From positions 3,966,001-4,030,000 of the forward strand of contig NZ_CP017886.1 in NCBI RefSeq assembly GCF_001874645.1: a stretch of DNA of 64,000 nt. The letters are read 5' to 3'. Positions within the stretch are counted from its first letter, which is position 1. Each line of letters opens with the position of its first letter. A program made the translations under genes and the position numbers. Below, one piece after another: positions 3,647 through 37,610 of this stretch. This stretch comes from Pseudomonas frederiksbergensis (lineage in GTDB: Bacteria > Pseudomonadota > Gammaproteobacteria > Pseudomonadales > Pseudomonadaceae). The notes below the pieces were generated by a model. It saw only the letters and a list, made by a program, of their open reading frames with translations, was not told the origin of the DNA and did not search any database.

Positions 3647-3988
3647 TTACTTTGCGGGCTTAGCGGATTTTGCGGGTTTGGCAGGCTCGGCTGATTCAGT
3701 TGGCTCAACGGGCTCAACGGGCTCAACGGTTTCAGCAGGCACGTTGAGCAGTTCGGACAAGGCGTCCGGCTGGCTCTTGAACGCCTTGGCGAACACATCG
3801 CGATTTTTCGCCATGTAGATCCCGGCTTCTTCCACCTGTTGCTCGGTCAGCGACGGAACCGCTTTTTGCAACACTTCAGCCAGCAACTCGGCCAGTTCGA
3901 GCATTTTGTCATGACGGTCAGCTTCGGCTTTATCCATGAACAAGCGCTCCAGATCTCGGCTGCTGCGGTATACCACTTCGACGGCCAT
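3647..3988 (-). CDS. yebG: YebG family DNA damage-inducible protein
   Basis: 113-residue homologue of Escherichia coli YebG, a small SOS-regulon protein of unclear function. The N-terminus MAVEVVYRSSRDLERLFMDK and the following KAEADRHDKMLELAELLAE match the family. The C-terminal ~25 residues are low complexity, with repeated EPV/EPA/AKP units encoded by a short direct DNA repeat (GGCTCAACG units near 3700-3730). E. coli YebG is 96 residues, so the tail accounts for the extra length. A GAGGTGG ribosome site precedes the ATG. A perfect LexA box lies about 45 bases upstream, so damage-inducible expression is well supported. Confidence 0.9.
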   Translation of the reverse strand: MAVEVVYRSSRDLERLFMDKAEADRHDKMLELAELLAEVLQKAVPSLTEQQVEEAGIYMAKNRDVFAKAFKSQPDALSELLNVPAETVEPVEPVEPTESAEPAKPAKSAKPAK

Positions 3989-4031: not shown

Positions 4032-4047
4032 CTGTATTTATATACAG
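4032..4047 (-). promoter_or_regulatory. LexA (SOS) box upstream of yebG
   Basis: CTGTATTTATATACAG fits the gammaproteobacterial LexA consensus CTGT-N8-ACAG exactly, with an AT-rich core. It lies 44 bases before the yebG start and explains SOS control of that gene. The rest of the gap from 3989 to 4318 holds this site and the REP hairpin at 4184-4264. Confidence 0.92.
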
Positions 4048-29345: not shown

Positions 29346-30901
29346 TGGTCGGCCTCCAAGGCTTGTAGACCGAAGTCGGCGGGGAAGTACTTGAGGGCGC
29401 TCGCCACCGGATAAGAGGTCATACCGCCCAACGCACACAGCGAACCGTATTGCAGGGTGTCGCACAGGTCCTTGAGGATGATCACCTGCTCATCGCGACC
29501 GCTCTGGTCAGGCGCGGCCAGCAGCCGGTCGATCACCTCCACGCCTCGGGTCGAGCCGATGCGGCAGGGAGTGCATTTGCCACAGGATTCCTCGGCGCAA
29601 AACTGCATCGCGAAGCGCGCCATGCGGGCCATGTCCAGGCTGTCGTCAGCCACCACCACGCCACCGTGACCGAGCATGGCGCCGATGGCAGCGAACGCTT
29701 CGTAATCCAGCGGCGTGTCGAATTGCCCTGGCGGCACCCAGGCGCCGAGCGGGCCGCCCACCTGGGCGGCCTTCAGCGGTCGGCCACTGGCGGTACCACC
29801 GCCGTAGTCTTCCACCAGTTCCCGCAGGGTCAGGCCAAAGGCCCGTTCCACCAGGCCGCCGTGACGAATATTGCCCGCCAGCTGGAAAGGCATGGTGCCC
29901 AGGGAGCGGCCCATGCCGTAATCGCGATAGAACGGCGCGCCCTTGGCCAGAATCAGCGGCACCGAGGCCAGGGTCAGCACGTTGTGCACCAGGGTCGGCA
30001 GGCCGAACAGCCCCTGTAAGGCGGGGATGGGTGGCTTGGCGCGGACGATCCCGCGCTTGCCTTCGAGAGAGTCCAGCAGCGCGGTTTCCTCACCGCAGAT
30101 GTAAGCGCCGGCACCGACGCGCACTTCCATATCGAAGGCCTGGCCGCTGCCGCCGACATTGGCGCCGAGGTAACCGTTGGACCGGGCAATATTCAGCGCC
30201 TCACGCAGGGTTGCCACGGCCTGTGGATATTCCGAGCGCACGTAGATGTAGCCGTAGCTGGCTCCGACAGTGAGACCGGCAATGGCCATGCCTTCGATCA
30301 GCAGGAAGGGGTCGCCTTCCATCAACATGCGATCGGCGAAAGTGCCGGAGTCGCCTTCGTCGGCGTTGCACACAATGTATTTCTGCGCCGCCTGAGTGCC
30401 ACGCACCGTGCGCCATTTGATCCCGGCCGGGAAGGCTGCGCCGCCACGGCCACGCAGGCCCGAATCGAATACGGCGGTCGCGGTCTGCTCGCCGCCCAGG
30501 GCGATGGCCTGGGTCAAGCCTTCGAAGCCGCCGTGGGCCCGGTAATCTTCCAGGGACAGCGGCCGGGTAATGCCGGCGCGGGCGAACAGCAGGCGTTGTT
30601 GAGTCTTCAGATAAGGCAATTGCTCCACCAGGCCCAAGGCCAGTGGATGGGTAGACGGCTCGCCTTGCAGCGCCTCGAGCAGGGACGGCACATCGGCAGC
30701 GGTCAGCGGGCCGAAGCCGATACGGCCTTGCGGGCTGTCCATTTCCAGCAGCGGTTCCAGCCAGTACAGGCCGCGAGAGCTGGTGCGTTGCACGTCCAGC
30801 GGCAGATTGCGTTCCCGGGCCTGAGTGGCCAGGGCTGTGGCCACCTCATCGGCACCCACGGCACGGGCAAGCGAATCACAGGGCAGATAGAGACTCGGCA
30901 T
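29342..30901 (-). CDS. fdsB: Formate dehydrogenase beta subunit FdsB (FMN, NADH-binding)
   Basis: 519-residue diaphorase subunit homologous to NuoF. The NADH site is GLRGRGGAAFPAGIKW, and FMN binding is indicated by CNADEGDSGTFADR and GAYICGEETALLDSLEGKRG; the [4Fe-4S] cluster motif near the C-terminus is ESCGKCTPCRIGSTRG. Residues 1-120 form the NuoE-like/thioredoxin-like N-terminal part seen in FdsB. It transfers electrons from the alpha subunit to NAD+. The start overlaps the fdsG stop by one base (TGATG). Confidence 0.95.
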   Translation of the reverse strand: MPSLYLPCDSLARAVGADEVATALATQARERNLPLDVQRTSSRGLYWLEPLLEMDSPQGRIGFGPLTAADVPSLLEALQGEPSTHPLALGLVEQLPYLKTQQRLLFARAGITRPLSLEDYRAHGGFEGLTQAIALGGEQTATAVFDSGLRGRGGAAFPAGIKWRTVRGTQAAQKYIVCNADEGDSGTFADRMLMEGDPFLLIEGMAIAGLTVGASYGYIYVRSEYPQAVATLREALNIARSNGYLGANVGGSGQAFDMEVRVGAGAYICGEETALLDSLEGKRGIVRAKPPIPALQGLFGLPTLVHNVLTLASVPLILAKGAPFYRDYGMGRSLGTMPFQLAGNIRHGGLVERAFGLTLRELVEDYGGGTASGRPLKAAQVGGPLGAWVPPGQFDTPLDYEAFAAIGAMLGHGGVVVADDSLDMARMARFAMQFCAEESCGKCTPCRIGSTRGVEVIDRLLAAPDQSGRDEQVIILKDLCDTLQYGSLCALGGMTSYPVASALKYFPADFGLQALEADQ

Positions 30902-31377
30902 CACGCGTCCTCCTGGCAAGCGTCGAGCAGGGCATTCAGGCGCTCGGCGCTGAGCCGCGCATGCACCTGGCCATCCAGCTCCAGAGCGGGCGAGCAGGCG
31001 CAGGCGCCGAGGCAATACACCGGGCGCAGACTGATGTTGCCGTCGGCGCTGCGGCCGTGGTCGTCCAGTTGCAGGCGTTCGCGCAACTGCGCGGCGAGCT
31101 GCTCGGCGCCGCGGCTCTGGCAGGACTCGGCCCGGCACAGACGCAGGATATGCCGGGCTGGCGGTGCGGTGCGGAAGTCATGGTAGAAGCTGATCACCCC
31201 GCGAACCTCGGCCTGACTCAGGTTGAGGGCGTGGGCAATCTCGGGGATGGCGGCATCGGGAATGTAACCGATGCCCTCCTGAATCTCATGAAGGATCGGC
31301 AACAGTGCGCCGGGCGAACCCTTGTGGCGCGCCAGCAGGCTGTTGACCATAGACAGGTGCAACATCTCATCAGGCAT
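30901..31377 (-). CDS. fdsG: Formate dehydrogenase gamma subunit FdsG ([2Fe-2S])
   Basis: 158-residue NuoE-like subunit with a thioredoxin-fold [2Fe-2S] domain. The four cysteine ligands are in LRLCRAESCQSRGAE and VYCLGACACSPAL. The N-terminus has the NuoE helix (GALLPILHEIQEGIGYIPDA). It is the first gene of the operon; the ATG at 31377 follows AGGA at eight bases. A LysR-type fdsR often lies next to this operon in other bacteria, but it is not present here. Confidence 0.93.
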   Translation of the reverse strand: MPDEMLHLSMVNSLLARHKGSPGALLPILHEIQEGIGYIPDAAIPEIAHALNLSQAEVRGVISFYHDFRTAPPARHILRLCRAESCQSRGAEQLAAQLRERLQLDDHGRSADGNISLRPVYCLGACACSPALELDGQVHARLSAERLNALLDACQEDA

Positions 31378-32022
31378 ACAGCATTCCTCACGGTCACGGA
31401 CACACCAGGCGGTTGTCGGTTGTCCGAAAAGTGTCGGCTGCGGCACTCACACCACGTCACGGTATCGTGGCATTTTCAGGCCGTTGGCCAGGCACCCTGA
31501 GCGGGCATCTTGTTGGGCCCGGTGCGGTCTTTGCCGCACCTGTTCAGGGCATATACGGCAGCTTGCCACGCTGCCTTTGAATCATCTGCACCAAAGCGAC
31601 GTGTTTGGTTCTGCCTACGACTATCCATTAAGTCTAGATGCGTGTGGCACGGGGCGTTCACTCACTGGACTAATGCCCGGAGGGCTTGTCGATGGGTGAT
31701 GTATAGCAAGTGTTACAGGTAAGAAAAAGCATCAGATCCGTGGGCAATTCTACGGAGCAGAACTGCACTATTGCGCATTTCTCCGATTTCAAATCGGGGT
31801 ATTGCTGGTGATACCTGTTCCTGTATTCCTGCCGGTTTCGAGGTCTTACTCTGCAAGGTGTTTCCCTTGTGGATCGTACATTTCAACCGCACCGTGATGA
31901 CTAGCCAACACTTCGCCGAGGGGCACGTTGCGGATGGCATGGAGCAGGGTTTGATCCAGGGTTGTCACCGCTGAGGCGTAAGCGCATCGGACGGTCCCTC
32001 CGACGCTGCGGTTATTGGTTCG
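31378..32022. other. Gap between fdsG and the bacteriocin region
   Basis: No confident gene. Seen here: the upstream region of fdsG; a hairpin GGTGCGG / CCGCACC at 31521-31540; a short palindrome CCGATTTCAAATCGG at 31783-31797; and the decayed toxin-tip fragment at 31846-31968 (listed separately). Several 60-75-codon open frames exist but have no supporting ribosome site or recognisable product. Confidence 0.6.
31846..31968 (-). pseudogene. Orphan fragment of a colicin E3-type rRNase tip
   Basis: On the minus strand a 40-codon frame starting at a GTG with no clear ribosome site ends in SHHGAVEMYDPQGKHLAE, then TAA. The matching stretch in the bacteriocin at 32271-33392 is SQHGAVEMYDKQGKHLGEF, and after the stop the frame continues DLETG where the intact toxin has DPVTG. 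The reading is a second toxin-tip remnant cut by a stop at the Phe/Tyr position and beyond the immunity gene. The first 22 residues do not match the E3 domain. It is too short to be called as a normal gene. Confidence 0.6.
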
Positions 32023-32262
32023 CTAAGCTTCAACACCGATGAATAGCTTTAAATGGGTTGGAAGCGATTGCCCGATGATTTTTGATATTTGCGCGGCTTG
32101 CTCATCCGCCAGCAGCCACTCCCCTTCTGCCATCGCATTAAGATTTCTATGACCTAGGAGTTGTACGATTTCATCGTTAAAGGAACCATCCAGATCAAGT
32201 TCAAAATGGAGGGAGTCGTCTTCAGCACTGTCAGGCAGGAATCCACTGATACAGAGATACAT
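32023..32262 (-). CDS. Immunity protein for the E3-type bacteriocin
   Basis: 79-residue acidic protein (ESDSAEDDSLHFELDLDG-like start, precisely FLPDSAEDDSLHFELDLDG) that resembles pyocin S6 family immunity proteins as I remember them, with a C-terminal LPTHLKLFIGVEA. It should bind and block the rRNase tip of the toxin encoded just upstream. AGGAG, overlapping the TAG stop of the toxin gene, lies at a normal distance from the ATG, eight bases after the toxin stop. The base composition is visibly more AT-rich than the neighbours, in line with acquisition by transfer. Confidence 0.8.
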   Translation of the reverse strand: MYLCISGFLPDSAEDDSLHFELDLDGSFNDEIVQLLGHRNLNAMAEGEWLLADEQAAQISKIIGQSLPTHLKLFIGVEA

Positions 32263-32270
32263 AAATACTC

Positions 32271-33392
32271 CTATTTTTCTACGTTCCGGCCGGGTTTGGC
32301 GGGTTTGGTTTGCTCGCCGGTAACCGGGTCAAACTCACCTAAATGCTTTCCCTGTTTGTCGTACATCTCAACCGCTCCGTGCTGGCTATCCCACTCATAA
32401 ATCCGCCCCTTTCCATCCTTCCAGCGTCTACGAGCCCCGCCGCCGCCCTGTACTCTCGTTTTAAAATCGACTTTGACCGCGTCAGGAAAGGCCGCCAGAC
32501 CTTTTGGCGCAGGGTGGAAGCTGTGATCGCCGCCTAGAGGCCGCGAGAACACCAGATACAACGAACTCAGGCCAGAGTCTGCCGGAAAAACCAGAATGCA
32601 GTCCTTGGTCTCTATGTCGTCCCCTGTCGGATAGCCCTCGATCTGGGAGTCTGTTCCTTCCGGGATCGGGTGTACGAGAATAGGGTCTTGGCTGTGGCTG
32701 GCGTCAGGGTGGACCAAGGGCGGTATGCCTGATCGTCCTCTAGGTGTCCAAAGAATGGTGGCCCCGTTTAACTCTGCTTCTATCGCGGTTCTGGTGGCGT
32801 TCCACTTGGCCTGAACCGTACGCACGGTGTCATCCCCTGAGGGGCCGGTATGGATGCCGTAAATCTGTAGCACGCCCTCAACATCGCGACGGAACTGAAA
32901 GCGCACGCGGGTCGGAGCTCGGGTCATACTGCGTAGCTGATCGTCGGTATAGAGTGTGCCGTCGCCCATTTTGGTCGGGAGCATGCCCAGCACAAACACG
33001 CCGGCAGGATTGCCGCGCAATGCCCAGGTGAATCCCTTTTGCAGGATGCCGCCACCGGCTATGCGCCCCAGTACCGCGTCGAAGCCTAGAGCGAGTCCGG
33101 CAGCTTGTGCCGCCGACGGGACAAGCATTGACCCAGCCAGCATGACCTTACCAAAGTTTGAGGCGGGCATGGTGTTGCTACCGGCGTGAGTACTCCCCCA
33201 GTTTTCAGGAGTGCAGCACTTGGCAAAGACTGGGTCTGAACGCTCCTTGGGAATTGGCCATTCATCTTTGGGGATGTATTCCCGCTCTGGCTCAGGGGGC
33301 GGATTCCAGGCGGCCCACGAGGCACCACCGTTCGGACGTTTCCGGCTCCAAATGTCGTTGAAAGGATCTTTTTTCTGTTTGTCCTTGGTCAT
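32271..33392 (-). CDS. S-type pyocin-like bacteriocin with colicin E3-type 16S rRNase tip
   Basis: 373-residue protein. A Pro-rich N-terminus (about 1-55), VFAKCC, and a hydrophobic stretch (about 70-125, ASNFGKVMLAGSMLVPSAAQ) lead to a Pyocin_S domain (about 135-285; TRVRFQFRRDVEGVLQIYG, CILVFPADSGLSSLYLVF). The tip (about 290-373) matches the colicin E3 cytotoxic domain: HPAPKG, GGGARRRWKDGKGRIYEWDSQHG, GKHLGEFDPVTG. E3 catalytic Asp510, His513, Glu517 and Arg545 correspond to residues in YEWDSQHGAVEMY and PGRNVEK. Compared with typical S pyocins (600-800 residues) a receptor-binding part is missing. It is paired with the immunity gene. The frame extends to 33557, but AGGG precedes the ATG at 33392. 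Confidence 0.9.
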   Translation of the reverse strand: MTKDKQKKDPFNDIWSRKRPNGGASWAAWNPPPEPEREYIPKDEWPIPKERSDPVFAKCCTPENWGSTHAGSNTMPASNFGKVMLAGSMLVPSAAQAAGLALGFDAVLGRIAGGGILQKGFTWALRGNPAGVFVLGMLPTKMGDGTLYTDDQLRSMTRAPTRVRFQFRRDVEGVLQIYGIHTGPSGDDTVRTVQAKWNATRTAIEAELNGATILWTPRGRSGIPPLVHPDASHSQDPILVHPIPEGTDSQIEGYPTGDDIETKDCILVFPADSGLSSLYLVFSRPLGGDHSFHPAPKGLAAFPDAVKVDFKTRVQGGGGARRRWKDGKGRIYEWDSQHGAVEMYDKQGKHLGEFDPVTGEQTKPAKPGRNVEK

Positions 33393-33427
33393 GACAATCC
33401 CTGTGTGACTTCGTCTCGAGACAGGAG

Positions 33428-33463
33428 ATTGTCGATCAGCTCGCTTCCCAGTCAATTTGACTC
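33428..33463 (-). promoter_or_regulatory. Candidate promoter of the bacteriocin gene
   Basis: On the minus strand TTGACT and GACAAT are separated by 16 bases, and the -35 box is half of the palindrome AGTCAATTTGACT. No LexA box or clear PrtN site was seen upstream, so this operon does not show the usual SOS signature. Confidence 0.3.
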
Positions 33464-33669
33464 GGTAACCTAAAGTTTCAGACTTTGGATAAAACGCTAT
33501 CTGTCCCGTATTTCTCCCCGTCCTAGGACATTTCCCGCAATTCGTAGCGCCTTTCATGAACTGGCGAGTAACGTTCCAGGAAGATAATCTCCTGTCTTCG
33601 CAGCAGCCGAGCGGACGGTTTTGACAGACCGAAAAAACGCAGGGATCCTGAAAATCCTGGAGATTCCTT

Positions 33670-34053
33670 ATGAAAAAAACTACCCGAAATCCACTTGAAA
33701 CCCCGTCGCTCTCAACACCAGAAGACCTCGATCCAATAGAACTCTCCGAAACCGCCCAACGCGCCGTCAGTGCCCGTTTGCGTAACCCCAGTCACCCTGA
33801 TCCCGTCAGCCATGTATTCACCATCGTCCCCGACGTAGACACGCCAACCTTACTGGTCCACGCCAGCGAAACCCTCGCCTCGATCAACGCCATGACCACC
33901 GACCTGGCGTTCGAACTCGAAGGCTCGCGGCGCAATGTGGCACTGGCGATGCAACAGTTGACCGTGTTGGCGGAGTTGTTGGTAAACCGAGCGCTAGACC
34001 ACCTCGACCAGCCCGATGGCACAGGTGAGAGTCAGCCCACCGTCCACCACTGA
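33670..34053 (+). CDS. DUF6124 family protein
   Basis: 127-residue protein matching the Pseudomonas DUF6124 family as I recall it: a Pro-rich start, VFTIVPDVDTPTLLVHASET, then ASINAMTTDLAFELEGSRRN and the conserved LLVNRALDHLDQ end. It is divergent from the bacteriocin gene across about 280 bases. A GGAG site lies eight bases before the ATG. There is no signal or membrane segment; the function is unknown. Confidence 0.82.
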   Translation: MKKTTRNPLETPSLSTPEDLDPIELSETAQRAVSARLRNPSHPDPVSHVFTIVPDVDTPTLLVHASETLASINAMTTDLAFELEGSRRNVALAMQQLTVLAELLVNRALDHLDQPDGTGESQPTVHH

Positions 34054-34087
34054 GTGGCCGCGCTCGTTTACCCAATGGAGGTTTGTC

Positions 34088-34345
34088 ATGGATCGATACA
34101 TGCCAGTCACCGGCATTGACTGCACCGTCCCGTCACTGCTGATCGATACCCAAGCGCCACTCGACGTACTGCACGAAACCGCCGCCTACCGCATCCGCAC
34201 CGCGACCTAATTGTTGGAGAACATTGCTGTGGGCGAGGGTATTCACAGTGAACTGGCACGGGTGCTGGTGACTTCACTGCGCGATGGCTGCGATTTGCTG
34301 GACGTGGTTGGGCGACGATTGCAGGCGCAGGTGCTGTTGGTATGA
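34088..34345 (+). pseudogene. Small gene split by an in-frame stop (DUF3077-like by appearance)
   Basis: An ATG at 34088 after GGAGG encodes 40 residues (ending YRIRTAT) up to TAA at 34208-34210. Reading through it, the same frame continues 44 codons (LLENIAVGEGIHSELARVL and following) to TGA at 34343-34345. A single C-to-T change (CAA to TAA) would explain the break. The product would be 85 residues and looks like the small proteins that accompany DUF6124 genes. A strong terminator follows directly at 34347. Confidence 0.6.
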
Positions 34346-34346
34346 A

Positions 34347-34377
34347 AAATGGGCGACCTTGTTCAGGTCGCCCATTT
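34347..34377 (+). terminator. Intrinsic terminator
   Basis: A 13-base perfect stem AAATGGGCGACCT / AGGTCGCCCATTT with a TGTTC loop, directly after the interrupted gene. Confidence 0.88.
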
Positions 34378-34390
34378 CAAGTTTGAGCAG

Positions 34391-34600
34391 GAAAAGGGAG
34401 GGGCAGATTACGTTTTACTCACACCCGTAATCGTGGTCTGTCACGTATTCCCCTGTGGCCACCCGTACCGTTACCGTGCTCTCGCGGACTTTAGTGATCG
34501 GGTAAAGCTGGAGATCGCGAGATGTATGTCATCTTAAAAAGACAGGGACAGATCACGTTTTCTCACACCCATAATCGTTGTCGTTCTCTGTATTTCCCGA
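34391..34600. repeat. Imperfect direct repeat of about 62 bases in a gene-free stretch
   Basis: 34391-34453 and 34538-34600 are similar: GGGGCAGATTACGTTTTACT versus GGGACAGATCACGTTTTCT, then TCACACCCGTAATCGTGGTC versus TCACACCCATAATCGTTGTC. The gap from 34378 to 34762 otherwise holds the REP half-copy at 34601-34633 and nothing coding that I can support. Such stretches often border REP elements in pseudomonads. Confidence 0.6.
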
Positions 34601-34633
34601 GATCAAAAGATCGCAGCCTTCGGCAGCTCCTAC
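34601..34633 (-). repeat. REP half-element
   Basis: A single arm GATCAAAAGATCGCAGCCTT continuing to CGGCAGCTCCTAC, beside the duplicated segment. Confidence 0.85.
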
Positions 34634-34762
34634 CGGGGTGACGGTGGGATTGAGAGAAAAGGGGACAGAGAAAAGGGCAGAGGTCCATTTTCATTTCAGC
34701 CAAACCTCTGCCCAGTATCAGTCGGTGTAAAGGGGCACCAAACTTGCCCCCAACCCGATCAT

Positions 34763-35092
34763 TCACTGAATATCTTTCAAGTAATCCTTAAGCGCTATGA
34801 GCGGGGCGTCAAGTTGCTCCAGCGTCTGCGCCGCGCTGAAATCAACCGACAATCTATCCAGTTCTCGACCCAGTGGCGTACCAGCCCCACCTATCGCCTC
34901 AAGCGCCAGCCCCACGCATTCAGCCACTTTGACCTTGATAGTCGTGACGTCACCTCTGCGTATCAGCAAGCCGAATACCTCCCTCTCATAATCGCTCATC
35001 ATCAGGTCGTCGCGCAGGATCGGGCTTTGACCTTCCGTTTCGTAAGCGAGCTTGAGGGAGAAGAGGGCGACTGTTTCCAGTGGCAATTCCAT
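34763..35092 (-). CDS. Small protein of unknown function
   Basis: 109-residue acidic, mainly helical protein, not recognised (starts MELPLETVALFSLKLAYETE). The ATG at 35092 has AGGA at eight bases; the longer frame to 35140 is not supported by a start. No signal or membrane segment. It lies between two REP arms and next to the tRNA gene. It could be a stress or regulator-associated protein, but nothing in the sequence says so. Confidence 0.6.
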   Translation of the reverse strand: MELPLETVALFSLKLAYETEGQSPILRDDLMMSDYEREVFGLLIRRGDVTTIKVKVAECVGLALEAIGGAGTPLGRELDRLSVDFSAAQTLEQLDAPLIALKDYLKDIQ

Positions 35093-35134
35093 GGGGGAAT
35101 CCTTGAGAAATTTCCTGCCGGGTGAGGATTTTAA

Positions 35135-35167
35135 GATCAAAAGATCGCAGCCTTCGGCAGCTCCTAC
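35135..35167 (-). repeat. REP half-element
   Basis: A single arm identical to the 34601 copy (GATCAAAAGATCG to CAGCTCCTAC), 43 bases upstream of the start at 35092. Confidence 0.85.
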
Positions 35168-35205
35168 GGAGGGGGAGGCTGGCTCACTTTTCTATAGGCG
35201 AAAAA

Positions 35206-35230
35206 AAAGGCCTTGCTAAGCAAGACCTTT
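35206..35230 (-). terminator. Terminator of the tRNA-Leu gene
   Basis: AAAGGCCTTGC / GCAAGACCTTT around a TAA loop, with a run of A before it that gives T's on the minus strand. It lies eight bases past the CCA end of the tRNA. Confidence 0.85.
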
Positions 35231-35238
35231 CTTAATTT

Positions 35239-35323
35239 TGGTGCCCCGAGGGAGACTCGAACTCCCACTCCTTTCGAAAACGGATTTTGAATCCGCCGCG
35301 TCTACCAATTCCGCCATCAGGGC
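35239..35323 (-). tRNA. tRNA-Leu, anticodon CAA
   Basis: An 85-base class II tRNA with encoded CCA. The acceptor stem pairs GCCCTGA with TCGGGGC, the anticodon loop TTCAAAA carries CAA, and a long variable arm follows. It reads UUG codons. The D-arm GGCGGAATTGGTAGACGC and the T-arm GGGAGTTCGAGTCTCCC are normal. Confidence 0.97.
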
Positions 35324-35430
35324 TTAATGGCCGCGGAGTATAGAGAGGTGATAACCGTTGGTCAATCAGGTACATGGAGAATTTTTGATTATTCCGCTAG
35401 ACTTCCCGGCCCTGCTAGACGAACCCCATC

Positions 35431-37610
<2,180 letters not shown>

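Follow-up and report, generated by a model that had tools for sequence, protein, structure and literature searches.

The gene considered here lies in a 64,000-nucleotide stretch of Pseudomonas frederiksbergensis DNA (NZ_CP017886.1, positions 3,966,001 to 4,030,000; hereafter the window, whose own numbering we use) and encodes, on the minus strand at 32271..33392, a compact toxin of 373 residues with a tip of the colicin E3 rRNA nuclease type. The stop lies at 32271 and the start codon is backed by homologues that share the same start. From the N-terminus, and on the minus strand throughout, the protein comprises: (i) a disordered Trp/Pro-rich tail of the form SWAAWNPPPEP...EWPxPK (residues 1-51; 33240..33392), delimited by model confidence and alignment; (ii) a segment with the motif F56-A-K58-C59-C60, recognised in aligned relatives (residues 52-71; 33180..33239); (iii) a globular colicin-type T domain (residues 82-287; 32532..33149) that includes the Pyocin_S, or inner-membrane-translocation, domain and (iv) the nuclease tip (residues 289-373; 32274..32528), found by Pfam, phmmer and fold match. 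In Pfam, Pyocin_S (PF06958) covers residues 150-281 at 6.9e-31 (108 bits against a cut-off of 22.5) and Cytotoxic, the E3 rRNA nuclease family (PF09000), covers residues 293-372 at 4e-34 (117 bits against a cut-off of 22). Between the tail (residues 1-48), the T domain from residue 82 and the tip from residue 289 there is no room for the usual receptor-binding domain, and a short receptor epitope may lie within the tail. In the predicted structure, then, the order is disordered tail, T domain, rRNA nuclease, with solely the receptor domain gone. An earlier note on this DNA had proposed a compact E3-type rRNA nuclease toxin without a receptor domain, and Pfam, phmmer and the predicted structure agree on this point. 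The same note held that translocation parts are missing too, which is contradicted by the T domain at residues 82-287 of the model, and its norm of 600 or more residues for such bacteriocins was too strict, pyocin S6 having 571 and colicin E3 551 (PMC4905994).

Residues 289-373 align with colicin E3 at 1e-17 (phmmer). The catalytic Asp, His, Glu and Arg that the earlier note had seen as kept are D335, H338, E342 and R369, which correspond to E3 D510, H513, E517 and R545; R321 and R323 correspond to E3 R495 and R497, and the position of E3 E515 is occupied by A340 (we took the E3 residues from the list in PMC4905994 and counted the register to E3 numbering ourselves). Downstream, at 32023..32262 on the minus strand, lies a gene for a 79-residue immunity protein, which matches NF040643, 'pyocin S6 family toxin immunity protein', with 114.3 bits against a cut-off of 30. 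The ATG of this gene is preceded by an AGGAG that overlaps the stop codon of the toxin gene, as had been claimed. Beyond it, at 31822..31902 (minus strand), 27 residues of another E3-type tip survive as a remnant (70% identity), with no second immunity gene recognised beside them; in PAO1, too, an S6 immunity gene stands as an orphan together with what is left of a toxin (PMC4905994). Relatives of the toxin (the loci that we fetched carry L numbers) can have immunity arrays, with four S6-type genes in L016 and three in L008, and in L027 a partial extra (orphan) tip is followed by an immunity gene. A protein family of about 161 residues recurs beside 14 distant loci (L050-L052, L054, L056-L058, L060 and L062-L067; example open reading frame L062_14) and is possibly an immunity protein there. 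Another protein, of about 86 residues, occurs in 24 copies in 13 of the loci L030-L059, as immunity arrays beside DNase-tipped versions; we take it to resemble the colicin DNase immunity proteins.

The T domain was delimited on a structure model built from 86 sequences, which reached a predicted local distance difference test score (pLDDT) of 70.4 against 44.5 for a model built from 24. A fold search, which barely covered model residues 1-81, superposed residues 82-287 on the T domain of colicins E3, E9, E7, B and D and also matched 3mfb; no viral fold matched at E <= 0.001. The role ascribed to Pyocin_S is that of an inner-membrane-translocation domain (PMC9040868).

Searching with residues 1-149 brought up 188 proteins, 120 of them listed; the named ones among those listed are nearly all from Pseudomonas, and most of the listed proteins end in the E3 tip or in PF21431, with a few ending in neither. 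Another compact E3 toxin of the genome that carries the window is L004, and a search with its front retrieved 868 proteins (120 listed). That genome has four Pyocin_S genes, one for a large S-type pyocin (689-codon frame) and three for compact toxins including the one in the window. Across the family a single cassette, made up of an F-x-K motif with a paired cysteine, the T domain and an exchangeable nuclease, is joined to several alternative front ends, which we classed by eye from the N-termini of fetched loci and from match ranges. Class A is the Trp/Pro-rich tail of the window protein, class B a 'MRLIR' module of about 75 residues, class C a Cys-rich module, class D a PAAR domain and class E 'GDGHH...TELAERDARQ', with a further type F in L004. 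Pfam found PAAR (PF05488) in all five class D proteins submitted, four above the gathering score and one below it, and none in the window protein. By their domains the PAAR-fronted members look like effectors of the type VI secretion system (T6SS). The suggestion that the N-terminus is a delivery adaptor gains from this, since the front looks exchangeable and homologues have the same cassette fused to PAAR. We also considered whether module B is carried by other toxins and rejected this: it was found in 19 proteins (E <= 0.001), and where precomputed domains exist, they are limited to Pyocin_S and/or the E3 tip. Some homologues are broken (e.g. L018, L043, L046 and L082). Judged by domains, the family is probably the predicted 'N1' bacteriocins of 2012; a paper of that year already described proteins of the P. 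fluorescens group that join Pyocin_S to an E3 tip (PMC3390384), PMC4905994 refers to Ghequire and De Mot 2014 for putative bacteriocins of this kind, and Pyocin_S domains in T6SS effectors were known by 2022 (PMC9040868, PMC9602870).

The class A tail is mostly predicted to be disordered (pLDDT < 50 over most of residues 1-48) and is shorter than the tails of colicins. It is nevertheless well conserved, with W26 at 100%, W45 at 98% and P46 at 100% in an alignment of 121 sequences. Over residues 1-284 of 14 class A genes, the ratio of nonsynonymous to synonymous substitution rates (dN/dS) is about 0.26 in the tail versus about 0.21 in the Pyocin_S region, with dS near saturation; the tip gives 0.07 from just four usable pairs. 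These values indicate a tail that is under constraint, conserved and not diversified. Behind the tail, F56 and K58 do not vary among the 86 aligned relatives. Exactly two cysteines surround the F-x-K motif in 291 of 315 proteins (none in 6, one in 15, three in 3), a sample that is redundant and of related sequences, so that we attach no probability to it. One of the pair is nearly always C60 and its partner sits at seven different offsets, the window protein having the adjacent C59-C60. Because the partner position shifts and both cysteines are lost together, the pattern suggests a disulfide at this F-x-K-x-C element. Neither Pfam nor NCBIfam placed another domain in the front end (RIX and WHIX were not run as profiles), and a signal peptide in the tail was rejected, there being no hydrophobic stretch. 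In the open-access literature, outside which most subscription papers fall, we found no description of the F-x-K-x-C element, nor of PAAR and tail replacing each other on a single cassette; the motif 'VFAKSC' had no match in open-access paper texts, a search that would miss sequences inside figures.

The best explanation for these genes is a polymorphic toxin and its immunity protein, used against other bacteria. The T domain would carry the tip across the inner membrane of the target, a step that in pyocin G the Pyocin_S domain performs with FtsH. Cleavage of 16S rRNA by the tip, at the E3 site, would follow, with the producer shielded by the immunity protein. We hold this sequence of steps, taken together, to be very probable. 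How the toxin would cross the outer membrane of the target is a separate question. We lean towards T6SS delivery, in which the tail would be an orphan cargo tag and do duty for the PAAR domain of relatives, because of the PAAR fusions and because no recognisable import epitope was found, and consider the chances that the window toxin is such cargo to be about even.

Several observations weigh against T6SS delivery. Genomic context, the first to consider, carries little weight. Twenty-one seeds from the T6SS clusters of the same genome (among them VgrG, PAAR, adaptor, sheath, baseplate and Hcp) were searched against 121 fetched loci, which represent about 100 distinct places, mostly with 8-10 kb per side; as a control, 20 of the 21 seeds found the second T6SS cluster of that genome. 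Contig C2 of this genome (G000:C2, 371 kb) bears a second large T6SS cluster, with gene content much like the chromosomal one. T6SS genes near the toxin loci came down to a piece of Hcp in L055 and a sigma54-activator-like match in L020, and the L055 piece lies at the far edge of the locus, about 8 kb from a toxin gene that is broken. Close linkage of the toxin to T6SS genes was thus rejected. This missing linkage is unusable against T6SS delivery since the PAAR versions are equally unlinked, and orphan T6SS effectors are documented for RIX (PMC10435454).

As for co-occurrence, we sought TssB in 249 Pseudomonas genomes (one per species, and not independent) and found it in 222. Class A, counted in 19 genomes in which the gene is apparently whole (leaving out G184, with a short start, and the broken or partial G116, G112, G237, G098, G165 and G084), had 17 TssB-positive genomes versus 205 of 230 others (p = 1.0), with a mean of 1.47 TssB copies versus 1.80. 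The PAAR class was TssB-positive in 10 of 10, with mean copies of 3.5 versus 1.7 (p = 1e-4); with G009, dropped for having no open frame with the motif, the set is 11 of 11 and the mean 3.36. Class C, in three genomes only, averaged 4.7 copies, and class B was positive in three of four. For the whole family, by hand counts at E < 1e-20 that include PAAR versions and the frame-broken G151, a match was present in 114 of 222 TssB-positive versus 5 of 27 negative genomes (p = 0.002); by the same counts, among genomes of at least 5.5 Mb the figures were 109 of 177 versus 4 of 10 (p = 0.20). The wide family thus leans to T6SS genomes, perhaps for reasons of genome size, and class A does not. Eleven TssB-negative genomes have any family match; TssC matched in none of the 11, and Hcp matched in 10. 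Intact class A genes occur in three lineages without a TssB or TssC match: G128, which is 100% complete in 2 contigs, also lacks Hcp and has a protein whose N-terminus is like that of P0011 (P. mohnii); P. lundensis L1802 (G106 = G262) and Pseudomonas sp. BBP2017 (G253). The latter two were also the only ones without TssB and TssC among 41 named genomes with class A or B loci, a set that omits L048 and includes some broken genes (e.g. L018, L043 and L046); in P. fluorescens PS662 only a TssB fragment was found, yet TssC is present. Other compact classes are intact in the TssB-negative G063 and G087 and frame-broken in G151. For comparison, RIX, a proven orphan T6SS tag, is reported from genomes 97.7% of which carry a T6SS (PMC10435454). 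At a RIX-like rate of T6SS lack (2.3%), two or more of 19 has p = 0.07, so that an excess in class A is suggestive, not decisive. The idea of T6SS delivery is thereby split: PAAR fusions exist as predicted, and there are intact copies where the T6SS sheath gene was not found.

These same three lineages, and the missing association of class A with T6SS, speak for a diffusible bacteriocin that has no receptor domain, is released by lysis and enters directly after attaching to a porin or another surface protein through its tail and F-x-K-x-C element. The colicin-like T domain, the immunity family shared with pyocin S6, an N-terminus predicted to be disordered as in five of eight bacteriocin groups (PMC5536347) and the classification of proteins with these domains as bacteriocins in 2012 (PMC3390384) are all consistent with it. 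It is harder to reconcile with the lost receptor domain, with a tail conserved at nearly the dN/dS of the Pyocin_S region (dS being near saturation), and with the signals that were sought. Two simple patterns for TolB and TonB boxes were found in none of 240 relatives (the first 80 residues of 120 class A proteins and of 120 from the L004 search), a search that would miss unusual boxes and was run without a known bacteriocin as control. The earlier note had seen no LexA box, and there is indeed none upstream of the toxin in the window (CTGT-N8-ACAG, at most one mismatch); within 400 bp upstream of 22 loci labelled class A (L064 and L159 doubtfully so) the best match always had at least two mismatches, with a large-pyocin control that was weak, little upstream DNA being covered. 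Elsewhere in the window, far from the toxin, a perfect LexA-type palindrome, CTGTATTTATATACAG, lies at 4032-4047, 44 bp upstream of a 113-residue open reading frame (3647-3988, minus strand). No recurrent lysis gene was seen among the 45 largest neighbour clusters, read by eye. We regard a diffusible toxin as a realistic possibility, albeit one that we lean against.

Alternatively, the module may have no current delivery route in this strain, being decayed or a reservoir that still serves through its immunity gene or through the exchange of tips by recombination. The tip remnant at 31822-31902, the several loci with more than one immunity gene, the orphan tip with immunity gene in L027, the broken homologues and the low G+C content of the locus (see below) fit such a state. 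The intact toxin frame, the conserved catalytic residues and the dN/dS of about 0.21-0.26 over residues 1-284 of the 14 class A genes (0.07 in the tip, from four pairs) do not, and we find it improbable. Carriage by another contractile particle (a tailocin or extracellular injection system) or contact-dependent inhibition is very improbable, as the protein is short and without CdiA-type parts and no tailocin genes were seen by eye in the 45 largest neighbour clusters. More speculatively, the class A front could be an undescribed delivery module that lets one cassette alternate between the T6SS (with PAAR) and a route independent of it, an F-x-K loop stapled by a disulfide being the shared docking element in the target envelope; we think this rather unlikely. 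Whichever route is used, the family offers a natural dissection of a colicin, in which tail, T domain and nuclease persist with the receptor part removed and sister proteins carry the cassette on PAAR fronts. Comparing class A with the PAAR class within one genus would reveal what a carrier must supply to the T domain, and whether the numerous proteins labelled 'S-type pyocins' in plant and soil Pseudomonas really diffuse.

With regard to the surroundings of the locus, the toxin and immunity genes lie in a stretch of lower G+C content (0.51-0.60 versus 0.61-0.68 in the flanks), and a tRNA at 35242-35323, about 2 kb from the locus, was the sole Rfam match over 30000-36000. Divergent from the toxin is a DUF6124 gene (33670..34053, plus strand; Pfam). 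This genome has three compact toxins, and a second of them, the HNH one, also has a divergent DUF6124 gene beside it (L003:3016-3396). As a toxin partner it was rejected, given that two of 18 DUF6124 matches genome-wide adjoin compact toxins and few relatives have one nearby. A role in anti-phage defence was likewise rejected, all PADLOC matches having E > 0.02.

Of the features of a nuclease bacteriocin, the window protein has the Pyocin_S domain and the C-terminal nuclease with a cognate immunity gene and lacks the receptor-binding domain. Group N1 of Loper et al. 2012 (PMC3390384) has PF06958 with an E3-type PF09000 or DNase tip, variable fronts and an often linked immunity gene, as here; that paper describes variable receptor-binding domains, whereas class A has a tail of about 50 residues and the wider family is partly PAAR-fronted. 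Pyocin S6 shares the Pyocin_S domain, the E3-type tip and the immunity family, and differs in its 571 residues, S1-type receptor-binding domain and P-box (PMC4905994). Colicin E3 (2b5u, 1jch, 1e44) shares the core fold of the T domain and the tip; the window protein differs from it in having no receptor domain and no simple TolB box, an F-x-K-x-C element and S6-family immunity. Among T6SS effectors, the MIX-type DNase VPA1263 (NF047924; PMC9602870) aligns around its Pyocin_S domain with window residues 76-284, although the match scores 85 bits where the cut-off for the whole protein is 900, neither a MIX nor a LysM domain was found in the window protein and the tip is different. Finally, the T6SS effector YPK_0952 joins PAAR and pyocin domains to a DNase tip (PMC11237486); the window protein has an rRNA nuclease tip and no PAAR, whereas the PAAR versions of its family have the same architecture as YPK_0952.
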